Assembly: GCA_013044295.1 (NCBI GenBank)
Contig: JABEUU010000032.1
Span: forward strand, 1 to 32,686
DNA: 32,686 nucleotides
Source: Candidatus Dormiibacterota bacterium
GTDB taxonomy: Bacteria; Chloroflexota; Dormibacteria; Aeolococcales; Bog-877
Direction: 5' to 3'
Below, piece after piece: positions 8,333 through 10,180 of the stretch. A program made the translations under genes and the position numbers. Within the stretch, counting starts at the first letter, position 1. Every line of letters begins with the position of its first letter. The notes under the pieces were generated by a model, which saw nothing but the letters and a program-made list of their open reading frames with translations, was not told the DNA's origin and did not search any database.

Positions 8333-8713
8333 ATGACAGATCTCGAAAAGGTGGCCCAGGCCGACTCCGAATCGGCTCGGTTGAAGCTGCAGGCCAAGCT
8401 GGCGGAGCTCACATCGGAACTGGCCGACCTGAGCCTGGGCCTGGCGGTGCCGACCGCTCCGGTGCAGTACGGCAAGCGTGCCGGAGACCACATCTCGGAG
8501 GTCTCGGAGCGGCTCGCCAGGTCTCGCGCCGGGGAGGAGCTGGAGAAGCTGTCCGATCAGGTGCGAGCCGCCCTGAGCCGGCTGGACAGCGGTGGCTACG
8601 GCCGCTGTGAGCGCTGCCGAGAGGCCATCCCCGAAGGCCGTCTGGAGGCACTGCCATGGGCGATCAGGTGCGTGGAGTGCGCCCCCATCCGAGACCCGAA
8701 GCGAGGCAGCTGA
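8333..8713 (+). CDS. DksA/TraR-like C4 zinc-finger protein
   Basis: Coiled N-terminus and C-terminal GGYGRCERCREAIPEGRLEALPWAIRCVECA four-Cys zinc finger. Confidence 0.85.
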   Translation: MTDLEKVAQADSESARLKLQAKLAELTSELADLSLGLAVPTAPVQYGKRAGDHISEVSERLARSRAGEELEKLSDQVRAALSRLDSGGYGRCERCREAIPEGRLEALPWAIRCVECAPIRDPKRGS

Positions 8714-9515
8714 CCGGATCCCCGGCGGCATCAGCGGGTGAGATCACGGGACCATAAGTGCCCAGTGGTCCGGCCGAGCCTGGCCGCTGCCCTGAGTCCG
8801 GAGTCCGGAGTCCGTCCAGGATCGCGAGTCCGCGGCTGGACCCGATCCGATCGGCGCCGGCGGCGATCACCCCCAGAGCGTCCTCGGTGGTGCGGATTCC
8901 GCCACTGGCCTTGACGCCGGTCTCAGGCTTGAGCATGGACCGCAGCAGCTCGATGTCGGAGGCCACTGTGGGGCGCAGAGAGAGCCCCTTGAACCCGGTT
9001 GAGGTCTGGATCAAATCCGCCCCGCCCCGCTCAGCCGCGAGGGCGGCGTCCACCGACTCCTCGGCGTCCAACAGCGGCATCTCGATGATCACCTTGAGCA
9101 CAACGCCGACCGGGAGCGCGCCGCGGACCCCTGCCACCTCTTCGCGGATCGCGGTGTACTCGCCAGCCCTCGCCCGACCAATGTCGATCACCATGTCGAC
9201 CTCGTCGGCGCCCATGTCAGCCACGGTTCGGGCCTCTGCGGCTTTGACAGTGGGGGTGTCGGCACCGAGTGGGAAACTCACCACGGTCGCGACCTTGACC
9301 GCCGAGCCGCGGACGACCGTGCGCGCCGTGGGCACCATGTTGGGCAGGATGCAGACCGCTTTGAAGCGCTGATCGACCGCCGTCTGGACGAAGGCCCGGA
9401 TCTCAGAGCGGGTGCAGCCCAGGTCCAGGTTGGTCTGGTCGATGTATGCCGCCAGCGCGGCCGGCGTGCTCGGCAACCCAGCGTCCATCGCCAGTCCGCC
9501 GGGCGGCGGGATCAT
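8664..9515 (-). CDS. Deoxyribose-phosphate aldolase (DeoC) family protein, Schiff-base Lys replaced by Gln
   Basis: AAYIDQTNLDLGCTRSEI, VCILPNMV, VATVVSFPLG, ADEVDMVIDIG, LKVIIEMPLL, GADLIQTSTGF, GVKASGGIRTTEDAL, DRIGSSRG. Start at ATG 9515 overlaps upstream stop (ATGA). Confidence 0.9.
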   Translation of the reverse strand: MIPPPGGLAMDAGLPSTPAALAAYIDQTNLDLGCTRSEIRAFVQTAVDQRFKAVCILPNMVPTARTVVRGSAVKVATVVSFPLGADTPTVKAAEARTVADMGADEVDMVIDIGRARAGEYTAIREEVAGVRGALPVGVVLKVIIEMPLLDAEESVDAALAAERGGADLIQTSTGFKGLSLRPTVASDIELLRSMLKPETGVKASGGIRTTEDALGVIAAGADRIGSSRGLAILDGLRTPDSGQRPGSAGPLGTYGPVISPADAAGDPVSCLASGLGWGRTPRT

Positions 9516-10180
9516 GGGGCCGTCCCGAGCAGGGCCCGGGTCGAGCTGGTGGCCACCCGGTCCGCCCCCGCCGCCAGCATCGCCATCGCCTCTGGCCTGG
9601 AGTCGATCTCCCCCCACGCCATCAGGCGCAGGGCGCTGCCATAGCGCGCCCGGATGACCTCGACCTGATGACCTTCGGTTGGGCCCTGGAACCCGGAGCT
9701 GGTGATCAGGAAGGTGATTCCCGCCTCGCCGATCAGTTCGGCGGCTCGCAGCGACTCCTGGTCGGTCAGCGCGGCGGCGTAGTAAATCACCTTGATGGCG
9801 CCGGCGTCGGCCAGTCGGCGCACTGCGGTCAAGTCATCGATCACTCGCTGGTAGTCCCCTGATCGGAAGGCGGAGACGTCGAGGGCCACGTTCAGCTCGT
9901 CGGCGCCATCCTCCAGGGCCTGCTCCGCCTGAATCACCTTCGCCTGGGTGGTCAGGGCTCCCAGGGGATGGCCGATCACCGTCGCCAGGCGCTGGCCCAT
10001 GGCGGACAGGATCGGCCGGGAGGAGGTGACGTAGGCCGGCTCCACCATCACCGCGGCATAGTCCCAGCCGGCGAGTGACTTGAAGAACTCCTCGAGCTCC
10101 TCGCGGGTGGGAGCCGGGGTGGCGATTGAGGCCTCGAGCGACAACGCCAGCTCCGCGCTCCGAAGGTCCCGCACGCCCAC
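9512..10180 (-). CDS. Divergent DeoC/LacD-fold aldolase paralog, predicted to lack canonical catalytic residues
   Basis: ATVIGHPLGALTTQAKVIQAEQALEDGADELNVALDVSAFRSGDY, IKVIYYAAAL, AGITFLITSSGFQG, AAGADRVATSSTRALL align colinearly with DeoC. Confidence 0.8.
   Translation of the reverse strand: MGVRDLRSAELALSLEASIATPAPTREELEEFFKSLAGWDYAAVMVEPAYVTSSRPILSAMGQRLATVIGHPLGALTTQAKVIQAEQALEDGADELNVALDVSAFRSGDYQRVIDDLTAVRRLADAGAIKVIYYAAALTDQESLRAAELIGEAGITFLITSSGFQGPTEGHQVEVIRARYGSALRLMAWGEIDSRPEAMAMLAAGADRVATSSTRALLGTAP

Follow-up and report, generated by a model that had tools for sequence, protein, structure and literature searches.

Deoxyribose-5-phosphate aldolases (DERA, DeoC) occur as dimers or tetramers (PMC8403123), and K167 of the enzyme is not exchangeable without loss of function (PMC6244999). 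Enzymes that work together with a degenerate paralog have been described in other families. In the plant PLP synthase, PDX1.2, a paralog with an unconserved active site, joins a heteromer with PDX1.3 and supports the catalytic one (PMC6829848). Heterotetramer formation between DHSc and DHSp (prozyme) of the trypanosomatid deoxyhypusine synthase leads to an activation of ~3000-fold (PMC3663545). No paper on heteromeric or tandem DERA was found in the literature.

The window, which is the whole analysed stretch of 32,686 nucleotides from a Candidatus Dormiibacterota bacterium, contained guaB, guaA, purD, a dksA-like zinc-finger gene, a carboxylase pair with biotin domains, purB, purC, and a purL-like gene on the plus strand. 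Flanked by these purine, dksA-like, and carboxylase genes, two DeoC-fold genes, B and A, were located on the opposite strand. Both frames were open and overlapped by ATGA at 9512-9515, in agreement with the original prediction of tandem and coupled genes. An alternative internal ATG start at 9488 is possible for gene A. The surroundings of the pair showed neither a sigma-70-like promoter nor a terminator. The features of the pair are as follows:

9512..10180, minus strand: gene B, the upstream paralog, 222 amino acids, GTG start
8664..9515, minus strand: gene A, the downstream paralog, 283 amino acids from the coupled ATG at 9515
9512..9515, minus strand: ATGA shared by the stop codon of B and the start codon of A (translational coupling); the junctions of relatives are likewise tight or overlapping
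9006..9008, minus strand: Q170 of A, encoded by CAG and aligned with K167 (codon read directly)
8910..8912, minus strand: K202 codon of A (K201 position), kept (alignment and sequence reading)
9195..9197, minus strand: D107 codon of A (D102 position), kept (alignment and sequence reading)
9704..9706, minus strand: I159 of B, encoded by ATC and aligned with K167 (codon read directly)
9890..9892, minus strand: N97 of B, encoded by AAC and aligned with D102 (codon read directly)
9620..9622, minus strand: M187 of B, encoded by ATG and aligned with K201 (codon read directly)
8664..8795, minus strand: C-terminal extension of A, approximately residues 241-283, predicted to be disordered
8794..8814, strand not applicable: 7-bp repeat in three perfect copies where the conserved part of A ends

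Both proteins were aligned with other DeoCs and with E. coli DeoC, in which D102, K167, and K201 fall where expected. The alignment agreed with the residues originally proposed for D102/K167/K201, namely D/Q/K in A and N/I/M in B, and placed no lysine at the K167 position of either window protein. Gene A differed from E. coli DeoC by K167Q with the remaining active site intact, and its proton-relay residues D102 and K201 were present as D107 and K202. Gene B carried D102N, K167I, and K201M, as well as C47M, F76H, E141Y, and G205E. A survey of DeoC-fold ORFs in the fetched loci showed that 83 of 96 distinct ORFs read D/K/K, and that the D/Q/K state was limited to window A (1/96); the other deviating ORFs were all B-type, except for two that were aligned only in part. 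The alignment with E. coli DeoC and the count over 96 ORFs rule out a chance or misaligned motif.

The original prediction had proposed a search for homologous tandem pairs, and this revealed a conserved coupled unit at no fewer than 11 loci including the window (at least 10 other copies). B preceded A at all 11 loci, with an overlap or a gap of a few bases. The pair was present in 8/8 sampled genomes of genus g2, which belongs to the same family as the window, and also in G406 (L068) and G407 (L069), two MAGs labelled Acidobacteria and Acetobacteraceae, respectively, by their depositors. L070, a contig of the g2 genome G119, was labelled Candidatus Dormiibacterota. Phylogenetic analysis placed all A proteins in one clade and all B proteins in another (support 100/99). 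B-type proteins formed a sharp score class with a large score gap to ordinary DeoC. In 400 phylum genomes, 110 class genomes, and the relatives of G407 (147) and G406 (201), none was found beyond the window, g2, G406, and G407. In plasmid records, the best match to B reached ~37% identity (none exceeded 60%), and those examined were single DeoCs. The score class and the plasmid records reject a widespread B family within the sampled genomes. Because the pair is patchily spread over unlike MAGs, horizontal transfer of B-A as a unit is suggested; alternatively, mis-binned contigs may be the source of this distribution. Separately, plasmid pZ25 of Shinella oryzae harbored a DeoC-like gene with an atypical ADEIAAV motif (L098:4806-5687), which adjoins SDR-like and carbohydrate-kinase-like genes amid ABC-transporter-like genes (by ORF reading only).

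Window A scored 197.7 bits against the TIGR00126 equivalog model, above the cut-off of 117.3 bits, and the A proteins of relatives scored 167-200 bits. Window B scored 114.1 bits, slightly below the cut-off. Among the other B proteins, that of G135 scored 82.3 bits, and those of G119 (124.9 bits), G407 (148.8 bits), and G406 (154.9 bits) passed. The AlphaFold2 model of window A was a DERA (beta/alpha)8 barrel with pLDDT of at least 90 over 208 residues and TM up to 0.96 to DERA chains (by target length). The same barrel was obtained for window B, with pLDDT 89 and TM ~0.9 to 3ngj and 5dbu. By sequence, the homology of both A and B to DeoC is solid. As regards the catalytic residues that mark a DERA, window B possessed none of K167, D102, and K201, and window A had Q170 in place of the Schiff-base lysine.

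All nine relatives whose codon was read keep K167 in A (AAG or AAA), and D102, K167, and K201 were retained in every relative with readable columns; A of G239 ends at the contig end, after K167. The window codon, CAG, is separated from AAG by a single base, a transversion. At 32 columns that are invariant in ordinary DeoCs, window A differed at three, two of which are common to the A rows compared, and K167Q was thus its sole private change. The pN between window A and its nearest relative was 0.29, within the range of the others. As a private change that takes a single base and has no private companion in the 32 columns, K167Q is recent, an error, or specific to the window genome. The active site of window A bears no mark of general decay; three options are left, namely a real change of recent date, an error, or a loss of chemistry under selection. 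Since K167 is not exchangeable (PMC6244999), window A with Q170 should not be a DERA and is predicted to be catalytically dead if the base is correct.

These results divide the original claim that both proteins lack the Schiff-base lysine: it stands for the window itself and fails as a feature of the system, in which A keeps K167. Conservation of the Lys-to-Gln change in A was not borne out, as glutamine was private to the window and the nine relatives had AAG or AAA. Homologs of the pair with an intact lysine, which the original prediction had named as a counter-finding, were found for A in nine of nine cases read and, in part, for B (three other copies). A pair-wide loss of K167 is ruled out by the lysine of A in all readable relatives. 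Being private and one base away, K167Q cannot by itself carry a claim of neofunctionalisation.

The C-terminal tail of window A (~43 residues) was absent from all relatives compared, and its coding sequence runs into the 3' end of the dksA-like gene, which is convergent with A (8333-8713). It starts near the 7-bp triple repeat, where a change in copy number would shift the frame, and such slippage is a plausible origin of the tail.

In B, K201 was lost in 11/11 copies (M or V). B of G119, G406, and G407 read K/D/M at K167/D102/K201, so that only K201 was missing, and contained an altered motif, KTNPGYGNVT. In contrast to G119, the other g2 genomes had A102, R137, M167, and V201, which were identical in all six copies readable across the gene. 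The Lys-to-Ile change proposed for B was therefore matched by a loss of K167 in g2 (M there), and K167 was kept in three of ten relatives. A single loss of K167 in B was rejected on the concatenated tree (p-AU 0.0028) and was not rejected on the B tree alone (p-AU 0.22). On the concatenated tree, K167 and D102 of B are read as lost twice independently, to M/A in g2 and to I/N in the window. Window B was the longest branch among the non-g2 B copies. The dN/dS values in g2 were 0.19-0.48 for B and 0.16-0.27 for A; given the former, g2 B is kept as a protein under purifying selection, while evolving faster than A. The g2 genomes thus contain a paralog that has lost its catalytic residues and is under selection.

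The six g2 loci L035, L036, L037, L039, L071, and L034 (G119) harbored the pair between rplA and rplJ, within a secE-nusG-rplK-rplA-rplJ-rplL-rpoB-rpoC cluster whose genes were named by reading protein sequences and gene order, not by family search. This site is unusual for a sugar-phosphate aldolase and would suggest strong constitutive expression. In G119, an FGGY sugar kinase (L034:6235-7788; best model XylB, below cut-off) was located directly before B. It had no close relative in other pair-bearing genomes, and a shared sugar-kinase pathway for the pair is not supported. The G406 pair was located near a nucleoside hydrolase, an SDR, and a LacI regulator, and the G407 pair between two MFS transporters; both genomes carry further ordinary DeoCs.

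Seven g2 genomes, as well as three sister genomes from the genus of the window, contained the pyrimidine-nucleoside phosphorylase gene deoA, which was not found in G119 or in the window genome, a draft of 226 contigs that is 91% complete. In those seven g2 genomes, which have the most degenerate B, a protein search detected no DeoC other than A and B and deoA is present in each, so that A is the only candidate DERA there. The sister genomes (G301-G303) contained both deoA and an E. coli-type DeoC, within a few kb of each other in G302 and G303. Apart from A and B, the only DeoC-family protein of the window genome was a distant aldolase on contig C117; given the completeness of the genome, the absence of deoA and of another DeoC is suggestive only. 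A lone, very divergent DeoC-like protein of G301 (L051) kept D102, K167, and K201, with the TSTG motif changed to LKNASSGAV, and was among the longest branches in the tree.

The most economical reading of the pair is a heteromer with a non-catalytic B, because the coupled unit is conserved and B is maintained without the Schiff-base machinery. A would be the aldolase, and B a non-catalytic or weakly catalytic partner of DERA, like PDX1.2 with PDX1.3; the probability of the reading is roughly 0.5. The two genes would represent a tandem, translationally coupled DeoC duplicate that is inherited as a unit and probably also passed on horizontally. A is the putative catalytic subunit, a class I deoxyribose-5-phosphate aldolase with its Schiff base on K167, which would convert dR5P, the presumed substrate in these organisms, into acetaldehyde and glyceraldehyde-3-phosphate. 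B is a DERA-barrel partner that has lost the K201 relay in all copies, and also K167 and D102 on two independent occasions. Its probable role is that of a subunit without catalysis of its own, which would stabilise or tune A within a putative hetero-oligomer. It may not have begun as a helper, because three B copies keep K167 and D102; those of G119, G406, and G407 could be active aldolases with another specificity. In the window, the private K167Q of A would leave the pair without DERA activity if the base is correct. This speaks against the helper model, since the catalytic subunit itself is impaired and the model can explain this only as pathway loss or a sequence error. An intact partner paralog in the same cell was found in the readable relatives and not in the window genome (K167Q in A, no other DeoC), so that the window pair, of which the active partner is missing by sequence, is not classifiable as an enzyme-pseudoenzyme pair. 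The neofunctionalised heteromer of the original prediction is thus supported as regards the conserved unit and the maintenance of B, and loses the argument drawn from the private loss in A; a different lyase chemistry of the pair was not supported.

The other explanations are not mutually exclusive: two concern window A only (an error and ordinary decay) and two concern the function of the pair. Ordinary decay, in which the window lineage lost deoxynucleoside catabolism and both K167Q in A and the additional changes in B are drift before gene loss, is a tentative option to which we give less than even weight. The window genome lacks detectable deoA, which the three sister and seven g2 genomes possess, and has no E. 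coli-type DeoC such as that of G301-G303; the disordered extension of A directly after the 7-bp triple repeat and the long branch of window B are also consistent with drift. However, both frames are open from end to end, the remainder of the A active site is exactly kept, the pN of 0.29 lies inside the range of the others, and a missing contig could account for the absent deoA. A sequencing, assembly, or strain-mixture error, with an ordinary A in the living organism, is unlikely. It would fit a private, single-transversion change (CAG for AAG) in a draft genome of 226 contigs, where all other catalytic residues of A are intact and no other private change occurs in the 32 columns. On the other hand, single-base consensus errors are generally rare in covered contigs, the sequence flanking CAG is in frame, and the joint absence of deoA and another DeoC fits a real pathway loss.

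With respect to what the pair does, it is somewhat unlikely to be an aldolase of two subunits that acts on a phosphorylated sugar different from dR5P and in which B, with K167 and D102 kept, K201M, and the KTNPGYGNVT motif, was originally a second active site. The FGGY kinase directly before the pair in G119 where deoA was not found, the neighbours of the pair in G406 and G407, and the additional ordinary DeoCs of these two genomes point in this direction, but the kinase has no close relative in the other genomes, the three loci have no common context, and the other g2 genomes have deoA and no additional DeoC. That window A and B form a non-aldolase heteromer, which as a sensor or scaffold would bind a sugar phosphate and leave it uncleaved, is very unlikely. 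Both frames and the barrel fold are kept although K167 is missing in both, and the retention of every other active-site residue of A would fit binding without turnover; nevertheless, the state is known from a single genome, K167Q is a private change of one base, and the pair has neither an effector domain nor a regulatory neighbour. Slightly more improbable still is a window lineage in which absence of the Schiff-base lysine has become fixed in A and B alike, which would yield a DERA heteromer of two pseudoenzymes that binds and does not cleave a sugar phosphate.

DeoC (TIGR00126; E. coli DERA, 5dbu, 3ngj, 3r12) and A have the fold, length, D102/K201, and remaining active site in common, and A of all relatives is a full family member by sequence. 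The differences are K167Q in window A, and in B the absence of K201 everywhere and of K167/D102 in the window and g2. The DERA oligomers described so far, whether dimers or tetramers, consist of one type of chain (PMC8403123) and not of a coupled pair of unlike subunits. Apicomplexan DeoC-like proteins (PDB 3qyq, 4eiv) belong to the same superfamily and appear in the PDB match lists of A and B, although they do not form a bacterial tandem pair. Those of Toxoplasma have reportedly lost DERA activity. If the A-B contact is real, the pair would provide protein engineers with a naturally heteromeric DERA. Furthermore, the intermediates in living genomes (B without K201 only, and B without all three residues, twice) would allow a stepwise test of pseudoenzyme origin. 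The best-known cases of an enzyme paired with a dead paralog are eukaryotic; the present pair is bacterial, translationally coupled, and within a much-studied aldolase family. PDX1.2/PDX1.3 likewise combines a (beta/alpha)8-barrel enzyme with a paralog that has no conserved active-site residues, but in another family and pathway and with plant genes outside an operon. DHSc/DHSp likewise joins an active enzyme to a catalytically dead paralog, but with another fold and chemistry, in eukaryotes, where both genes are essential; the hetero-oligomer of A and B, and any activation by it, is putative. The conserved feature is a DERA with a coupled, degenerating paralog, which most likely works like these and other enzyme-pseudoenzyme pairs.
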